A DNA stretch of 64,000 nucleotides from Marinobacter profundi (GTDB taxonomy: Bacteria > Pseudomonadota > Gammaproteobacteria > Pseudomonadales > Oleiphilaceae): the NCBI RefSeq assembly GCF_002744715.1, contig NZ_KZ319369.1:248001-312000 (forward strand). Direction: 5' to 3'. Shown piece after piece: positions 17,959 through 24,630 of this stretch (its first letter is position 1; every line of letters starts with the position of its first letter). The position numbers and the translations under genes were made by a program. Below the pieces are notes generated by a model. That model ran no database searches and was not told the DNA's origin. It saw only the letters and a program-made list of their open reading frames with translations.

Positions 17959-19008
17959 GTGAATAATACGCTGTCGACAAGGCTCACAGAGTTCAGTCAC
18001 GGTGCGGGTTGTGGCTGCAAGATTGCACCGGATGTCCTGGAGCGGATTCTTCACTCCGCTATCCCGGATTATCACGACCCGCGGCTGCTGGTTGGCAACG
18101 CCAGCCGGGACGATGCGGCGGTGCTGGATGCCGGCAATGGGCTAGGCATTATCAGTACCACGGATTTCTTTATGCCGGTGGTGGATGATGCGTTTGATTT
18201 CGGCCGGATCGCCGCGGCAAACGCAATCAGTGACGTCTATGCCATGGGGGGCAAGCCTCTGATGGCATTGGCGATACTGGGCTGGCCGATCACCCGGCTG
18301 GCTCCGGAGATTGCATCCCGGGTCATCGAAGGGGGGCGGGCCGTATGCGCGGATGCGGGAATAGCCCTGGCTGGCGGTCACAGTATTGATTCCCCGGAAC
18401 CCATTTTTGGCCTCGCGGTAACCGGTCAGGTGCCGGTCGACCGGATTGTCCGTAACGATACCGCCCGGCCTGGCGATCTTCTTTACCTTACCAAGCCCCT
18501 TGGTGTCGGGATCTTGACCAGCGCAATCAAAAAACGTCGTATCGGAGACGCCGACCTGGCGGCAGCGGTCGCGACCATGTGCACCCTGAACAAGGCCGGT
18601 GAGGCATTTGCCGCCGTTGAGGGTGTTCATGCCATGACCGACGTGACCGGATTTGGCCTTGCCGGGCATTTGCTTGAGGTTTGTCGTGGTAGCGGCGTCG
18701 GCGCGATCGTGCGAGGTGGGTTGGTGCCGCTGCTGCCGAATCTCGACGGTTATATCGGGGCGGACTGCATACCGGGAGGCACCCATCGAAATGCCGCAGC
18801 ATTCGGGGGCGACATTGACGGCTGGTCCGAGCGGAACAAGATTGTGTTCTGTGACCCCCAGACCAGCGGCGGCCTGCTGGTCTGTGTTGCCGAAAAACAT
18901 CGTGAGGCCTTTGAGCGCGTGGCCAGTACTCAGGGGCTCGAGCTGAACCCGCTGGGGCAGCTCTGTGACCGATCTCCGGCGGAGCCGCTGATCCGCATTA
19001 CGGACTGA
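17959..19008 (+). CDS. selD: Selenophosphate synthetase (cysteine form)
   Basis: SelD makes selenophosphate from selenide and ATP for selenocysteine or 2-selenouridine formation. The 349-residue product has the glycine-rich active-site loop HGAGCGCK with cysteine at the position that is selenocysteine in some species, then ASRDDAAVL and STTDFFMPVVDD. The GTG at 17959 has GGGGAG eight bases upstream. No selA, selB, selenoprotein or mnmH gene is visible in the window. Its 3' end overlaps the convergent minus-strand operon by 11 bases. Confidence 0.93.
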   Translation: MNNTLSTRLTEFSHGAGCGCKIAPDVLERILHSAIPDYHDPRLLVGNASRDDAAVLDAGNGLGIISTTDFFMPVVDDAFDFGRIAAANAISDVYAMGGKPLMALAILGWPITRLAPEIASRVIEGGRAVCADAGIALAGGHSIDSPEPIFGLAVTGQVPVDRIVRNDTARPGDLLYLTKPLGVGILTSAIKKRRIGDADLAAAVATMCTLNKAGEAFAAVEGVHAMTDVTGFGLAGHLLEVCRGSGVGAIVRGGLVPLLPNLDGYIGADCIPGGTHRNAAAFGGDIDGWSERNKIVFCDPQTSGGLLVCVAEKHREAFERVASTQGLELNPLGQLCDRSPAEPLIRITD

Positions 19009-19867
19009 TCTGCCAGCCGATAGCGGGCCCTTCGAACACCAGGGCGTTGTGCAGTTGAACCAGGTCTGCCCCGGCCTGCAGCCTGTCCCGGTAGTCCTGC
19101 CGGCAGTACACGCCGCCATTGGTCAGCAGCGCCGTAGCGCCGGTGAGATGCCGCCTGCAGGCCTCAAGGATGCGGCAGGTGGTGGCCTGAAATTCCCGGT
19201 CCTGCCAGCGGCGATAGTGGGCAGCGGTGAACGGTTTGCCAAAGTCGAAGCAAAGCAGAATGCCATCAACCGCCTGGTCGGCAAGACCGCGGACGAGAGT
19301 AAGCGCATCCCCCCGGCCGGGTATGAGCCGAAGCTTGTAGACAATCGGGCAGCTTTTGCCGGTTTGGAGGGTCAGCGCCTGCTGAGTCGTCCGCAATGCG
19401 CGCAGGCTGGCGTAACGTTGCTGAGCGGGAACCGCTGCCGTTAGCCATTCAGGGGCAATCGACAGGTAGTCTGCGGTGTGCCATGCCCGTTCGATAAGGC
19501 GTGCCAGTTGACGGGTTTCCTGTGCGGCAGATTCCGGTGTGATGGCCGCCAGGCGAATGCCCAGCCGGGTATCGAGCAGGGGGGCGGGGTGACTGGCAAG
19601 GACGGGCTCCGGCCAGTTATGCGGCGTCCAGCTGCCCAGTTCAATGGCGCCAAACCCGAGGTTGCCGGCAGCGCGACCAAGTATCCCCTGGCGGTCAAAC
19701 CCTGCAGCGATACCCAGGCGATTGGGGAACACCAGGCCCATGCAGTGGGCGGGGCTGGCGGCCAGTGCCAGGCGGCGCCAGGCAAGCCGGGGCTCGCTGG
19801 CCCGGTCGCAGGCGGCCCGGAATGCCTGCTCCCGGATTTCGGTTGGCAGGGGCAGTGATTTAGCCAT
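18998..19867 (-). CDS. Dihydroorotate dehydrogenase-like protein, catalytic motif lost
   Basis: The 289-residue protein has a class 2 PyrD fold pattern: PNRLGIAAGFDRQGILGRAAGNLGFGAIELGS near the N-terminus, PIVYKL in the middle, and a C-terminal FMN-phosphate-like region (NGGVYCRQDYRDRLQAGADLVQLHNALVFEGP). The usual GLDKNG is GFDRQG, and the NxSSPNTPG segment that carries the catalytic serine is replaced by LSIAPEWLTAAVP. Dihydroorotate oxidation is therefore unlikely. It is the last gene of the pqqADE-headed operon and overlaps the serC-like gene by eight bases. Function unknown. Confidence 0.8.
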   Translation of the reverse strand: MAKSLPLPTEIREQAFRAACDRASEPRLAWRRLALAASPAHCMGLVFPNRLGIAAGFDRQGILGRAAGNLGFGAIELGSWTPHNWPEPVLASHPAPLLDTRLGIRLAAITPESAAQETRQLARLIERAWHTADYLSIAPEWLTAAVPAQQRYASLRALRTTQQALTLQTGKSCPIVYKLRLIPGRGDALTLVRGLADQAVDGILLCFDFGKPFTAAHYRRWQDREFQATTCRILEACRRHLTGATALLTNGGVYCRQDYRDRLQAGADLVQLHNALVFEGPAIGWQISP

Positions 19868-20951
19868 AGCGCTGGCGGAAGTCGGTCATGAAGGCCGCCA
19901 GCGCCGCGACTGCAGCATCGGGCTGGGCGTTGTACAGGCTGGCCCGGAGTCCGCCAGCGTGGCTGTGCCCGGTAAGGTTGAGCAGCCCGCGGTCAGCCGC
20001 TTCGGACACAAACCGTTGTTGCAGCTGCGGTCGGGCCAGGCCGAAGCATACGTTCATCATCGAGCGGTGCCCCGGCAGCACCCGGCACTGAAAGAAGTCG
20101 TCTTCATCAATAACGCGGTACAGTGCCCGGCTTTGAGCGATATTGCGGGCATGGATGCTGGTCAGCCCCCCCTGTTCCGTCAGCCAGTCCAGCATCAGAT
20201 GCACCAGGTAAACGGCAAACATCAATGGCGTATTGACGCGGTTCTGCCGTTCCAGTTGTCGCTGGTAGTTGAATACCGTCGGGGTCTCCGGTCGTGCCCT
20301 GTCCAGCAGATCGTCACGGATGATGACAATAACCAGACCGGTCGGTCCCAGGTTCTTCTGGGTCCCGGCGTAAATCAGGCCATAGCGCCGGATGTCCACC
20401 GGGCGCGACAGGAAGTCGGAGGTCATGTCCGCAACCAGCGGGATGTCACCACAGCTCGGGTCGGCGTGGAACTGCACCCCGTTGGCGGTTTCGTTGGACG
20501 TGATGTGGCAGTACTGAAGATCGTCGGACAGCGCCCAGTGGTCGACCGGAGGAATGCGGTCAAACTGGCTGGTACGGCTGCTGGCCACCAGGCGCGCCCG
20601 AGCGTATCGGCGCCCCTCCTCAAATGCCCGTGTCGACCAGTGGCCGGTTTCCACATAGCCGGCGGTGGCGGTTGCGGGCAGAAGGTTCAACGGGACCAGG
20701 GAAAACTGGGCCGAGGCGCCACCCTGCAGCAACAGCACCTGGTAGTCATCCGGCAGCGCCAGTGCGCTTTTGATCTGGTTCCGGGTGGTCTCCATCAGGG
20801 ATATGAATTCGTCGCTGCTGAAGGGCGTTTCAAGGAGGGAATAGCCCAGCCCCTGCCAGTCGCCCAGGCTTTCCCTGGCTTTTGCCAGCACCTCCGGCGG
20901 TAGCGTCGCCGGTCCCGCTGCAAAGTTGTAGAGTCTGCCGGTGCCCCTCAT
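19860..20951 (-). CDS. SerC-family PLP aminotransferase, phosphate site altered
   Basis: The 363-residue protein aligns over its whole length with phosphoserine aminotransferase: YNFAAGPATLP at the start, the PLP lysine in IYAGTQKNLGP, and GGLRASLYNA near the end. Against remembered E. coli SerC, the pair His41-Arg42 (SHRGKEF) is replaced (PFSSDEF), and Arg329 in GHRVVGG is Ser (GHSHAGG), while the carboxylate-binding arginine in GGLRAS is kept. Loss of both phosphate-binding arginines suggests a substrate other than phosphoserine. The start codon overlaps the previous stop as TGATG. A normal serC would be expected elsewhere. Confidence 0.85.
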   Translation of the reverse strand: MRGTGRLYNFAAGPATLPPEVLAKARESLGDWQGLGYSLLETPFSSDEFISLMETTRNQIKSALALPDDYQVLLLQGGASAQFSLVPLNLLPATATAGYVETGHWSTRAFEEGRRYARARLVASSRTSQFDRIPPVDHWALSDDLQYCHITSNETANGVQFHADPSCGDIPLVADMTSDFLSRPVDIRRYGLIYAGTQKNLGPTGLVIVIIRDDLLDRARPETPTVFNYQRQLERQNRVNTPLMFAVYLVHLMLDWLTEQGGLTSIHARNIAQSRALYRVIDEDDFFQCRVLPGHRSMMNVCFGLARPQLQQRFVSEAADRGLLNLTGHSHAGGLRASLYNAQPDAAVAALAAFMTDFRQRYG

Positions 20952-21457
20952 CAGAACACTGCCAGGCCGTGGCTGCCGGCCGCCATGAAGAAAATCAGCG
21001 GCATTGAGAGAATGGTGTTGGTGCGGGAGGACAGGAAGGTAATCCGTGAACAGCGCACCCGTTCGGCGGCCGGCGCCGCTACGAAACCCAGTACTTTTTT
21101 CTGGTGTGGCCAGAGCACCAGCCACAGGTTCAGCACCATGACAATGCCGATCCAGGCGCCGACTCCAATGACGACGTGGTGGCCCTGCAGTAACAGGGCG
21201 TCGGCGAGAATGCCGCGCTGCCAGAGCAGCAACGCGCCCGACGCCAGCACCACCAGTGAGGCATAGCGGAATGTGCCATGTTCCTGATGCATGCGCCGGG
21301 TCAGGTCGGACGACCGCTGGCCGTTGTCGTCCGGATCAAGCCGCAGCGGCACAAATACCGGTGTCTTAACCACATTGGCGTAGTTGTGGCCGACCCAGAT
21401 CAGGGCAAACCCTATGTGCAGCCAGCGCAGTGCAATGTCCACCAGCGCCCAGCTCAT
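20951..21457 (-). CDS. PuuD/CopD-like four-helix membrane protein
   Basis: The 168-residue product has about four membrane helices. RWLHIGFALIWVGHNYANVV, with its histidine in the first helix, and later histidines (HHVVIGVGAWIG) resemble the membrane domain of PuuD-type urate hydroxylase and CopD-like proteins, which may bind haem. The cytochrome c domain of PuuD is absent. Its ATG overlaps the stop of a 35-residue gene and its stop overlaps the serC-like start. A redox or electron-transfer role is only an inference. Confidence 0.75.
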   Translation of the reverse strand: MSWALVDIALRWLHIGFALIWVGHNYANVVKTPVFVPLRLDPDDNGQRSSDLTRRMHQEHGTFRYASLVVLASGALLLWQRGILADALLLQGHHVVIGVGAWIGIVMVLNLWLVLWPHQKKVLGFVAAPAAERVRCSRITFLSSRTNTILSMPLIFFMAAGSHGLAVF

Positions 21458-21561
21458 GACAAACCTGCCTGGAGCCAGGCGCCGGTCAGCAGGTAGAGGA
21501 TCGCAGTCAGGGTGATGCCTGCGAGGAGCGTTCCTGCGAGCGAGTCGTGAGGTAGTTTCAT
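21454..21561 (-). CDS. 35-residue single-helix membrane peptide
   Basis: The peptide begins MKLPHDSLAGTLLAGIT, continues with a hydrophobic stretch (LTAILYLLTGAWLQAGLS) and ends with TGA. One membrane helix is predicted by eye. The ATG is one base after the pqqE stop, and its stop shares four bases with the next start. This tight packing between recognisable genes is the main support that it is translated. No family is recognised. Confidence 0.65.
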   Translation of the reverse strand: MKLPHDSLAGTLLAGITLTAILYLLTGAWLQAGLS

Positions 21562-21562
21562 G

Positions 21563-22696
21563 TCAGCCCTCCGTGGGATGCCAGCCGGCATCACGGGCGA
21601 TCAGCATCCTGTGGTCCTGCCGGGTTGCACCTGCCCTGGCCACGGCTTCGCGAACAAGGTGGTGGTGGGGCGACTTGCTGCAGGCGGGATCGGCATTGGC
21701 GGCGTCGCCGGTCAGCAACATGGCCTGGCAGCGACAACCGCCAAAGTCGTGTTCTTTTTCAGTGCAGCTTCGGCAGGGCTCCTTCATCCAGTCATCACCC
21801 CGATACCGGTTGAAGCTTTCCGACTGGTGCCAGATCCAGCCCAGGTCATGGTCGCGCACGTTCGGGAAGTGCAGCCCCGGCAGTGTGCGCGCCTGCGAGC
21901 AGGGCAGTACCATGCCATCGGGCGCAATGGTCAGGTGAATGCTGCCCCAGCCGTTCATGCAGGCCTTGGGGCGGCCCTCGTAGTAATCCGGGATGACAAA
22001 GAAAATGGTCATCCGGTCGCCGAGCTGTTTGCGGGCGTCGGCCACCTGGGCCTCGGCCATCGCCAGGGCTTCCCGGGTGGGCATCAGTTGATCCCGGTTT
22101 ACCAGCGCCCAGTTGTAGTACTGGACGTTGGCCAGCTCCAGGTACTCCACGCCGATGTCGGCTGCCAGCGCAATAATCTCGGGCACCTGGTGGATGTTAA
22201 GGCTGGAAATCGGGACATTCAGCACCATGGGAAAGCCCAAATCCTTGATTTCCCGGGCGATGCGGAGTTTTTTGTCGTAGCAGTCCACCCCGGCCAGCCA
22301 GTGGGCCGTTTCCGGATTGCTGGATTGGAACCCGAGCTGGATATGACGAAGTCCGGCCTGTTTCAGGTCTTCCAGGCGCTTTCGGGTAAGGCCGATGCCG
22401 GAGGTAATCAGGTTGGTGTAGTAACCCAGCGCGTTTGCCTCTGCTACCAGCTCTTCAAGGTCTTTGCGCAACGTGGGCTCACCCCCTGAAAAACCGATCT
22501 GCATGGCGCCCATGTCGCGGGCATCACGAATCACGCTTTTCCATTCGGCGGTCGTCAGTTCGTCCGGGTGGGCGGCCAGGTCGGTCGGATTGCTGCAGAA
22601 TGCACACTTGAGCGGGCATCGGTAGGTCAATTCCAGCAGCAGCCACACCGGGTTGCCCTGACCATCAAGATTCAGATTGGATCCAGCCTTTGCCAT
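21563..22696 (-). CDS. pqqE: PQQ biosynthesis radical-SAM enzyme PqqE
   Basis: PqqE forms the Glu-Tyr carbon-carbon crosslink in the PqqA peptide, acting with PqqD. The 377-residue product has TYRCPLKCAFCSNP for the SAM cluster and a full SPASM region: CMNGWGSIHLTIAPDG, then LPCSQARTLPGL, EPCRSCTEKEHDFGGCRCQA and the final ADPACSKSPHH. The ATG at 22696 lies inside the end of pqqD, a 32-base overlap. All expected cluster cysteines are present, so it should be active. Confidence 0.94.
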   Translation of the reverse strand: MAKAGSNLNLDGQGNPVWLLLELTYRCPLKCAFCSNPTDLAAHPDELTTAEWKSVIRDARDMGAMQIGFSGGEPTLRKDLEELVAEANALGYYTNLITSGIGLTRKRLEDLKQAGLRHIQLGFQSSNPETAHWLAGVDCYDKKLRIAREIKDLGFPMVLNVPISSLNIHQVPEIIALAADIGVEYLELANVQYYNWALVNRDQLMPTREALAMAEAQVADARKQLGDRMTIFFVIPDYYEGRPKACMNGWGSIHLTIAPDGMVLPCSQARTLPGLHFPNVRDHDLGWIWHQSESFNRYRGDDWMKEPCRSCTEKEHDFGGCRCQAMLLTGDAANADPACSKSPHHHLVREAVARAGATRQDHRMLIARDAGWHPTEG

Positions 22697-22958
22697 GACA
22701 CACCTCCAGGAACTGGCGAACTCGGGGTTCGATGAAGTCGGGTTGCTCGGAGAAGAGTTCGGAAAGCTCAAGAACAATATCGCTGAGAGTGTTGAGCCCG
22801 TTGCAGCGATTAAGAATTTCGCCGGCAGTCGTGTTCAGCTTTACGATGCCCTCCGGGTACATCAGGACAAAGGCCTGCTGGGACTCTTCCCACCGGAACA
22901 TAAAGACCGGCGCAATGCGGAATCGGGGCAGGCTGTTGTGATTGTTTGAGTCAGCCAT
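22665..22958 (-). CDS. pqqD: PQQ peptide chaperone PqqD
   Basis: PqqD is a small RRE-fold chaperone that binds PqqA and presents it to PqqE. The 97-residue product has FMFRWEESQQAFVLMYPEGIVKLN and TAGEILNRCNG, typical of PqqD. GGGAG precedes the ATG. It follows pqqA after an 81-base gap, where pqqB and pqqC would normally stand. Confidence 0.92.
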   Translation of the reverse strand: MADSNNHNSLPRFRIAPVFMFRWEESQQAFVLMYPEGIVKLNTTAGEILNRCNGLNTLSDIVLELSELFSEQPDFIEPRVRQFLEVCHGKGWIQSES

Positions 22959-22995
22959 GGGTATGTCTCCCGGGTTGGTGGGGCGGGGCGACAGC

Positions 22996-23039
22996 GCGGC
23001 CCCGCGGCGTATGGCCGGCCACGGCGCCGCCCCGCGGGG
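22996..23039 (-). promoter_or_regulatory. GC-rich structured region between pqqA and pqqD
   Basis: Right after the pqqA stop, the sequence contains the palindromes CCCCGCGGGG (23030-23039) and GGCCGGCC, plus a further CGCCGCGGGG-type arm on the transcribed strand. This could form a stable hairpin that protects or partly terminates a pqqA transcript, as is common after pqqA. No T run follows, so it is not a strong intrinsic terminator. Confidence 0.45.
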
Positions 23040-23126
23040 TTAGCGGACGTAGACGTAGGCGGTCACCTCAAAGCCCAGTCTCAGGTCTTTGAAATCCGGA
23101 TCAATCCACTTGGAATCGTTTCTCAT
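23040..23126 (-). CDS. pqqA: PQQ precursor peptide PqqA
   Basis: The minus strand encodes a 28-residue peptide from ATG at 23126 to TAA at 23040: MRNDSKWIDPDFKDLRLGFE followed by VTAYVYVR. The segment LRLGFEVTAY carries the conserved Glu and Tyr, three residues apart, that are joined to build PQQ. A weak ribosome site (CAGGAC) is present. PqqD and PqqE follow on the same strand. Confidence 0.92.
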   Translation of the reverse strand: MRNDSKWIDPDFKDLRLGFEVTAYVYVR

Positions 23127-23246: not shown

Positions 23247-23517
23247 GGTCGTAATTTTGCGGTTTTTTCCAGTGATGGCCTGTCGGGTTCTCTGTGAATC
23301 CTGCCAGTCGGTATTTTAAGAAGTAGAGAAATTGATTGTTATCAAGAGGGATGACGGCAAGGGTGATTCGCAGCGCCAGTTCCGAAAGCGGGACACGTCA
23401 GAGGGAAGGGTACATCGATAAGCTTTTGATATGTGGTGCGACGTTGGATTCAGACCACTTGCTTTTACCCGAAGACCAGAGACTTTTTGAAACCCGCGAC
23501 ATCCGGGCGTAGGCTGA

Positions 23518-23783: not shown

Positions 23784-24497
23784 TCAGACCTGCTCCCGAA
23801 CCAGCATCGCTTTGATATGACCAATGGCTTTCATGGGATTGAGTCCCTTGGGGCAGTATGCCGTGCAGTTACCGATACCCCGGCAACGAAATACACTGAA
23901 GGGATCTTCCAGCTTTGCTAACCGCTCTCTGGTGGCGGTATCCCGCGAGTCCACCAGAAAACGATAGGCCTGAAGCAGGCCGGAGGGGCCAATGTACTTT
24001 TCCGGATTCCACCACCAGGAGGGACATGCCGAGGTGCAGCAAGCGCAAAGAATACACTCGTAGAGCCCATCCAGCTTCGCTCTGTCTTCCGGACTTTGGA
24101 GGCGCTCAATGGCAGGTTCCGGGCTGTCGTTAATCAGCCAGGGCTGTACCCGGGCATATTGCTTGAAGAACAGAGACTGATCTACGACCAGGTCCCGTAT
24201 AACCGGCATCCCGGGTAATGGCCGGACCTCAAGAATATCCTTCTTGCCGAGAGCATCCTCCACCCGTGTGATGCAGCCCAGGCCGTTACGGCCATTGATG
24301 TTGAGCCCGTCGGAACCACAGACACCTTCCCTGCAGGAGCGGCGGAAGGCGAGCGTAACGTCCCGGGTTTTCAGATGTTCCAGGACATCGAGAACCATGC
24401 GATTGCGGAATTCGCCGTCAACCTGGACATCCTGGTTGTAGGGGGTGTCATCCTGTTCCGGGTTGTAACGATACAAGCGAACGGTAAAGGTCGACAT
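23784..24497 (-). CDS. sdhB: Orphan succinate dehydrogenase iron-sulfur subunit
   Basis: The 237-residue protein is a complete SdhB. It has the [2Fe-2S] motif (SCREGVCGSDGLNINGRNGL followed by GC), the [4Fe-4S] motif CILCACCTSACPSWWWNP, and the [3Fe-4S] motif CRGIGNCTAYCPKGLNP. SdhB passes electrons between the flavoprotein and the membrane anchor of complex II. No sdhA, sdhC or sdhD lies nearby, so this is a second or displaced copy. The start ATG 24497 has AGGAGGT upstream. Confidence 0.92.
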   Translation of the reverse strand: MSTFTVRLYRYNPEQDDTPYNQDVQVDGEFRNRMVLDVLEHLKTRDVTLAFRRSCREGVCGSDGLNINGRNGLGCITRVEDALGKKDILEVRPLPGMPVIRDLVVDQSLFFKQYARVQPWLINDSPEPAIERLQSPEDRAKLDGLYECILCACCTSACPSWWWNPEKYIGPSGLLQAYRFLVDSRDTATRERLAKLEDPFSVFRCRGIGNCTAYCPKGLNPMKAIGHIKAMLVREQV

Positions 24498-24630
24498 TCT
24501 GCTACCTCCTGGAATTTCATGCATTCTTCGTATGCGTCTAATGTCAGATTAGCAGATTGGGTGATTGTCGTAGTGGAGAGTGACCATTCGGCAGGCACTC
24601 ATCCGGGTGTATGAGAAGTACCCGTTGAAA

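Follow-up and report, generated by a model that had tools for sequence, protein, structure and literature searches.

Which product is made by an operon that holds pqqA, pqqD and pqqE, lacks pqqB and pqqC, and carries puuD-like, serC-like and pyrD-like genes in their place? The question is raised by a stretch of 64,000 nucleotides of Marinobacter profundi, a bacterium with the genes for denitrification (assembly GCF_002744715.1, contig NZ_KZ319369.1, positions 248,001 to 312,000 of the forward strand), which was analysed as a whole and is called the window below; positions follow its own numbering. Synthesis of pyrroloquinoline quinone (PQQ) is held to require oxygen in passages of PMC11102522 and PMC12423496. 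Nitrate respiration also occurs in organisms whose PQQ enzymes oxidise methanol or ethanol, and this conflicts with an oxygen-requiring synthesis. From the gene set and its order, an FNR-type motif, the residues kept and lost in the encoded proteins and the co-location with PQQ enzymes, we infer that the operon is probably an oxygen-independent PQQ biosynthesis pathway for use in nitrate respiration. Its oxygen-free character is suggested by an anaerobic-type neighbourhood together with the FNR-type box upstream of pqqA.

Gene order and distribution of the cluster

The operon runs on the minus strand from 23126 to 18998 and comprises pqqA (23040..23126), pqqD (22665..22958), pqqE (21563..22696), a gene for a 35-residue hydrophobic membrane peptide (21454..21561), a puuD-like gene (20951..21457), a serC-like gene (19860..20951) and a pyrD-like gene (18998..19867). 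A first-pass annotation had listed these seven open reading frames (ORFs), and each was found at its place and on its strand; the SerC and PyrD paralogues, described there as fused to the operon, are packed against their neighbours and not fused. The overlap between pqqD and pqqE is 32 nt, one base separates pqqE from the peptide gene, and from pqqD onward all neighbouring genes overlap or stand one base apart. The end of the pyrD-like gene overlaps the end of the oppositely directed selD by 11 bases.

The six-gene order was found in the loci of all 7 relatives fetched, so that the comparison across relatives proposed with the first-pass annotation came out in favour of conservation. The cluster recurs in 82 loci, in 80 genomes and two plasmids; the 80 genome loci are the best 80 of 94 PuuD-like alignment matches among genome contigs, the two plasmid loci were obtained by protein search, and three of the 82 (L046, L051 and L119) coincide with relatives' loci that had been fetched previously. 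PqqE-like and SerC-like proteins were each found in 81 of the 82 loci, PyrD-like and PqqD-like proteins in 78 each and PqqA-like peptides in 74. Misses among these six are confined to contig ends, apart from PqqA in L054 and the PyrD-like protein in L117. Since the order is repeated in 7/7 relatives and 82 loci, a chance arrangement was ruled out.

Members of Marinobacter, Pseudomonas, Stutzerimonas, Halomonas, Billgrantia, Motiliproteus, Methylophaga, Sedimenticola, Thauera, Azoarcus, Hydrogenophaga, Methylotenera, Hyphomicrobium, Rhodoblastus, Methylovirgula and Acidibrevibacterium are among the hosts, and denitrification or methylotrophy is known from several of these genera. Downstream of the cluster, an M48-like protease is encoded in 7 of the 82 loci and an MftE-like creatininase in 4, query-source loci included in both counts; the loci with such peptidase-type genes, candidates for PqqA peptidases, are L072, L087, L088, L098, L114, L117 and L124. 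On a Methylovirgula plasmid (L123:2980-5829), a CbpA/CbpB modified-peptide system and a Crp/Fnr-family gene stand beside the cluster.

The first-pass annotation had reported pqqB and pqqC as missing. This holds for the operon, which thus does not have the content of a canonical one; it does not hold for the genome, where a canonical pqq set is found on another contig (C8). The sole pqqC match of the genome (385 bits) is adjoined there by pqqD, pqqE, a PQQ alcohol dehydrogenase and a PqqA match, and pqqB is represented by an ORF 86% like a PqqB that passes TIGR02108 (genome G097). With pqqC and the remainder of the set on this contig, a genome devoid of pqqBC was ruled out. The window operon is a second pqq set, one that lacks the pqqBC encoded elsewhere in the genome.

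Residues kept and lost in the encoded proteins

The product of pqqA is a 28-residue precursor peptide, MRNDSKWIDPDFKDLRLGFEVTAYVYVR, with the core EVTAYVYVR (E-x3-Y); it was recognised by ORF reading, and no family model was run. In 74/74 loci the cluster PqqA ends C-terminally in EVTAY[VAI][YFH][VT]R; among other PqqA-like matches (n = 24, collected with a narrow pattern), EVT[ML]Y was found in 23 and EINCY in one. PqqD, the peptide chaperone, scores 79.5 bits with TIGR03859 (cut-off 46) and 83.8 with NF002535, under the cut-off of 101. PqqE, a radical S-adenosylmethionine/SPASM protein, scores 517 bits with TIGR02109 (cut-off 381); with the model for mycofactocin MftC it reaches 98.5 bits, under the cut-off of 265, and is thus not assigned to MftC.

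Ten of 11 PqqE cysteines are invariant across 79 cluster rows and 26 comparison rows; the latter include L138, itself a Sedimenticola cluster copy, which was omitted from the list of discriminating columns. In a PqqE tree, 79 cluster rows separate from 17 canonical ones with support 100/100; the canonical rows stem from gammaproteobacterial loci and include many near-copies. A wider tree, built without the rows of 14 named Stutzerimonas-like loci, places all 66 cluster rows on one branch (100/100) together with L138, which is labelled canonical there and has zero distance to the Sedimenticola locus L088, so that the canonical labels do not form one group. Rows without a full gene were removed by length from both trees and from the SerC-like and PyrD-like comparisons below.

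Residue roles in SerC and PyrD (contacts to pyridoxal phosphate (PLP), phosphate binding, the flavin mononucleotide (FMN) lysine and the orotate site) are those that we take to apply to these families. In the SerC-like PLP aminotransferase family (81 rows, window included), the PLP lysine K198 and the PLP-contacting D174, W102 and T240 occur in 81/81 rows, and R335 in 79/81, the other two being gaps. The phosphate-binding residues are lost, as had been noted for the window protein and now holds across the family: H41 is replaced by F and R42 lost in 81/81 rows; at position 329 the window has S in place of R, and the 78 rows shown have P, A, S, G, K or C. Model scores are mixed, with 415.1 for TIGR01364 (cut-off 443.6) and 443.5 for NF003764 (cut-off 253). 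In a relative (genome G052, L040:7893-8782) the serC-like gene is short by about 66 residues with a changed frame, and in L106 serC is in two pieces; both are regarded as broken genes or assembly errors.

The PyrD-like protein is a TIM barrel whose predicted model (predicted local distance difference test score 92.6) has a class 2 dihydroorotate dehydrogenase (DHODH), 1f76, as its nearest structure; with TIGR01036 it scores 68.1, under the cut-off of 200. The FMN-site lysine K217 is present in 78/78 rows, the orotate loop N111-F115 is gapped, and the catalytic S175 is not conserved (W in the window). The residue losses reported earlier for the window protein are family-wide; N172 is kept in 71/78 rows, though not in the window. 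The paralogue is not the sole copy, a case that the first-pass annotation had allowed for: a separate true PyrD with SSPNT is encoded elsewhere in the genome. Because the same substrate-site losses occur across each family and the cofactor-site residues are retained, decay of the serC-like and pyrD-like genes was rejected.

The puuD-like gene encodes a PuuD-core protein (Urate_ox_N/DUF989) of 168 residues, matched by PF06181 with 37.4 bits (cut-off 26.9) across 73 of 295 positions. Its predicted model has four long helices, consistent with four transmembrane segments (4-TM), and no cytochrome c domain, so that the protein does not have the 8-TM and cytochrome c domains of the PuuD urate oxidase; H14, H24, H60 and H163 are invariant in 52 rows. 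The 35-residue peptide, read from its ORF, is present in the window as had been described and was detected in only 53 of the 82 loci, which makes it optional or diverged beyond detection. It probably acts in the membrane as a small partner to the PuuD-like protein.

Upstream box, neighbourhood and PQQ enzymes

A perfect FNR/ANR-type box, TTGATNNNNATCAA, lies at 23332..23345, about 206 nt upstream of pqqA, and no other perfect match occurs in the 64 kb. When up to one mismatch is allowed, 2 matches were seen in the window against 0.75 expected by chance, so that the window alone proves little. Among the 74 loci with enough upstream DNA, a perfect box was found within 320 bases upstream of pqqA in 20, and a box with at most one mismatch in 34. 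The corresponding values were 0 and 1.2% for dinucleotide shuffles (n = 1480), 0.3% and 1.9% for random windows of the same loci (n = 1409), and 0 and 1 for the upstream regions of canonical pqqA genes (n = 40). As the loci are mutually related, these box counts are not independent. In one alignment of 20 upstream regions no clear conserved leader was seen by eye apart from the box.

Near the operon, UbiU, UbiV, SelD, UbiT and NarL were recognised over the cut-off, RIC-like and NarX-like proteins below it, and an SdhB-family protein is also encoded there; hemN (14389) and narG (30483), named by ORF reading, also lie in the window, and nosZ is present in the same genome. The SdhB-family iron-sulfur gene (23784-24524), upstream of pqqA, adjoins the RIC-like repair gene. 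The PuuD-like gene was found in 12 of 124 genomes of the genus; each of the 12 has UbiU over the cut-off (85/124 overall, Fisher p 0.018) and a nosZ match (86/124 overall, Fisher p 0.017), these tests being uncorrected for ancestry.

In flanks of up to 10 kb, a quinoprotein dehydrogenase was found in 15 of the 82 loci and pqqBC in 20, hybrid groups included. In two Sedimenticola hybrids (L088 and L098), both without the box, pqqB and pqqC precede pqqA-D-E-pep-puuD-serC-pyrD by 0.2-0.4 kb, M48-like and creatininase-like genes follow pyrD, all on one strand, and neither genome has another pqqC match. In Motiliproteus MSK22-1 (L060), pqqA-D-E-pep-puuD-serC-pyrD is followed by pqqB, pqqC and a pqqD-like gene, and a second pqqE was not found near the cluster in the 20 kb fetched. 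With pqqBC beside the cluster and a single pqqE in reach, this arrangement suggests that one crosslinked intermediate may feed both oxygen-using and alternative finishing enzymes, provided that those genomes hold no other pqqE. Billgrantia campisalis (L154) has a pqqABC group with no pqqD or pqqE in the 3.4 kb fetched beyond pqqC; a similar-sized stretch holds pqqB, pqqC and pqqD without pqqE in L177 (genome G235) and pqqC only in L139 (G146). The other fetched pqqC regions with enough sequence are mostly pqqABCDE. Two or three tandem pqqA matches were observed in the canonical operons of L162, L178 and L179, and second PqqC-like matches of 51-56 bits, far under the cut-off, in four genomes (G108:C5, G111:C25, G214:C34 and G183:C1).

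The Rhodospirillales metagenome-assembled genome (MAG) Glo_3 (L072, L125 and L126) has one pqqE match, and its assembly gave no match to pqqB, pqqC or a second pqqE; pqqB was searched in 11 chosen genomes, and dehydrogenases and pqqE in 10. About 9 kb separate the Glo_3 cluster from the gene of a methanol/ethanol-family PQQ dehydrogenase (743 bits), behind which stands a XoxJ/MoxJ-type gene. Genes recognised nearby over the cut-off were MoxJ-like, relay metallohydrolase and SoxYZ-like; a methanol-type cytochrome, an HtpX/M48-like gene and a creatininase-like gene scored below it. The gene content of this assembly, which is of uncertain completeness, is suggestive only.

Proposed route, alternatives and known systems

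In the proposed route, PqqD would present PqqA to PqqE, which, judging from family membership, would join Glu and Tyr of the EVTAY core. The crosslinked Glu-Tyr would then be freed by a host peptidase; in a few lineages the candidates for it are M48-like or creatininase-like genes that follow the cluster. The PuuD-core, SerC-like and PyrD-like proteins would finish PQQ in place of the oxygen-using PqqB and PqqC. By our own arithmetic on the formulas, crosslinked Glu-Tyr (C14H18N2O7) plus water gives PQQ (C14H6N2O8) plus 14 H; the conversion would thus take one oxygen from water and remove 14 electrons. With no O2, the respiratory chain has to take up these electrons, a task to which a membrane protein of PuuD type and a relative of the quinone-linked DHODH would be suited. 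The PuuD-core membrane protein may introduce the ring oxygen from water via dehydrogenation, a role proposed because it is a relative of a urate oxidase thought to hand electrons to a cytochrome. The SerC-like PLP enzyme might act on an alpha-amino group in the Glu-like part. Dehydrogenation of the new rings could fall to the PyrD-like flavoenzyme, with the electrons handed to the respiratory chain. FNR-type control of the operon would agree with such a route.

Several observations weigh against an oxygen-independent PQQ pathway. The weakest point is chemical: PQQ keeps both nitrogens, so that an aminotransferase is not obviously needed and a plain transamination must be reversed or compensated. 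A Foldseek search of the PDB with the PuuD-core model gave no useful match (best E 0.44), which makes the proposed redox role a guess. A box with at most one mismatch is absent upstream in 40 of the 74 loci, including all 16 Stutzerimonas-named loci counted. Within the genus, many genomes have UbiU, nosZ and pqqC and yet no cluster, and pqqC is not significantly associated with it (11/12 cluster genomes and 83/112 others, 94/124 overall, p 0.29). The cluster also rarely stands alone, since a pqqC match occurs in 75 of the 80 cluster genomes (over the cut-off in 74), and assembly gaps could explain all five without one, namely a 58%-complete MAG (G186), an isolate assembly with coverage 6.8 and three MAGs including Glo_3.

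The first-pass annotation had proposed a shared pathway, for PQQ supply or insertion or for a modified product of the PqqA crosslink. PQQ supply is the best supported of these, insertion found no support, and the modified product stays as a rival. As such a rival, the cluster might turn the crosslinked Glu-Tyr into another cofactor or small molecule, for instance a PQQ analogue with one nitrogen less, used under denitrification. This is unlikely, although the SerC-like protein keeps its PLP site with a changed substrate site, the cluster-specific core differs from the EVT[ML]Y of nearly all other PqqA-like matches, and its PqqE has a branch of its own; pqqBC next to the cluster in Sedimenticola and Motiliproteus, where a single pqqE is in reach, the quinoprotein dehydrogenases in the flanks, and Glo_3, with its PQQ dehydrogenase and no other pqq set found, speak for PQQ itself. 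In a more specific form, to which we also give a low probability, a non-PQQ quinone cofactor would arise from the EVTAYVYVR core, its ring system built differently by the aminotransferase and the flavoenzyme, and would serve quinoproteins or a dedicated enzyme during denitrification.

It is quite unlikely, too, that the cluster only boosts the crosslinked precursor at low oxygen, with PqqB and PqqC finishing on trace O2 and the PuuD-like, SerC-like and PyrD-like proteins in side roles. The frequent pqqC matches, a box that suits low oxygen and hybrid groups that place pqqBC next to the same pqqADE would agree with this; against it stand the near-constant SerC-like (81/82) and PyrD-like (78/82) genes in loci selected by the PuuD-like gene, only the PyrD-like miss of L117 lying away from a contig end, and the lack of a pqqB or pqqC match in the Glo_3 assembly. 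A function of the downstream genes in PQQ transport, insertion or salvage is highly improbable: the predicted membrane location of the PuuD-like protein is the sole point in its favour, the PLP-site and FMN-site residues are kept in the SerC-like and PyrD-like proteins, and no transporter family was matched in profile searches. Oxygen-independent PQQ synthesis thus remains the preferred explanation.

If true, this explanation would resolve the conflict between PQQ-dependent oxidation and nitrate respiration through a pathway built from three repurposed proteins, and would give the short PuuD core a role. The present comparisons support the proposal and put it on a firmer, directly testable footing, and they name genomes suited to testing oxygen-free PQQ synthesis.

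The cluster type is already in print as speculation, and the window locus adds a further member. In its section on the cluster, PMC12423496 (2025) describes pqqAED-puuD-serC-pyrD in Hyphomicrobium denitrificans (Hden_0548-0553) and other denitrifiers, calls PQQ completion without oxygen 'tempting to speculate', and reports that transcripts of the Hyphomicrobium pqq copies fall alongside those of denitrification genes in regulator mutants. No further paper on the cluster was found in the open-licence PMC literature searched, where the string 'pqqAED' also occurs once in PMC13188868, and print elsewhere is possible. The published and window clusters share the six gene types on one strand, the proposed function and, as far as that section goes, the presence of a canonical pqqABCDE set in the same organisms; the window differs by the order pqqA-D-E and by the 35-residue membrane peptide, and the genera that the paper names do not include Marinobacter. 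Its section on the cluster contains neither the FNR-type box nor the hybrid gene groups nor the Glo_3 case.

With canonical pqqABCDE, the window operon has PqqA, PqqD, PqqE, the E-x3-Y core and the conserved cysteines in common; it differs in the residues around the core Tyr and in having PuuD-like, SerC-like and PyrD-like genes in place of those for PqqB and PqqC. The PuuD cytochrome c urate oxidase of PMC4562309, a paper that mentions short 4-TM DUF989 core proteins in other gene contexts, shares this short 4-TM core with the 168-residue window protein, which lacks the cytochrome c domain. The SerC-like protein is alike to SerC in its PLP-site residues and has lost the phosphate-binding ones, and the PyrD-like protein has the FMN TIM barrel of class 2 PyrD and has lost its orotate-binding residues.

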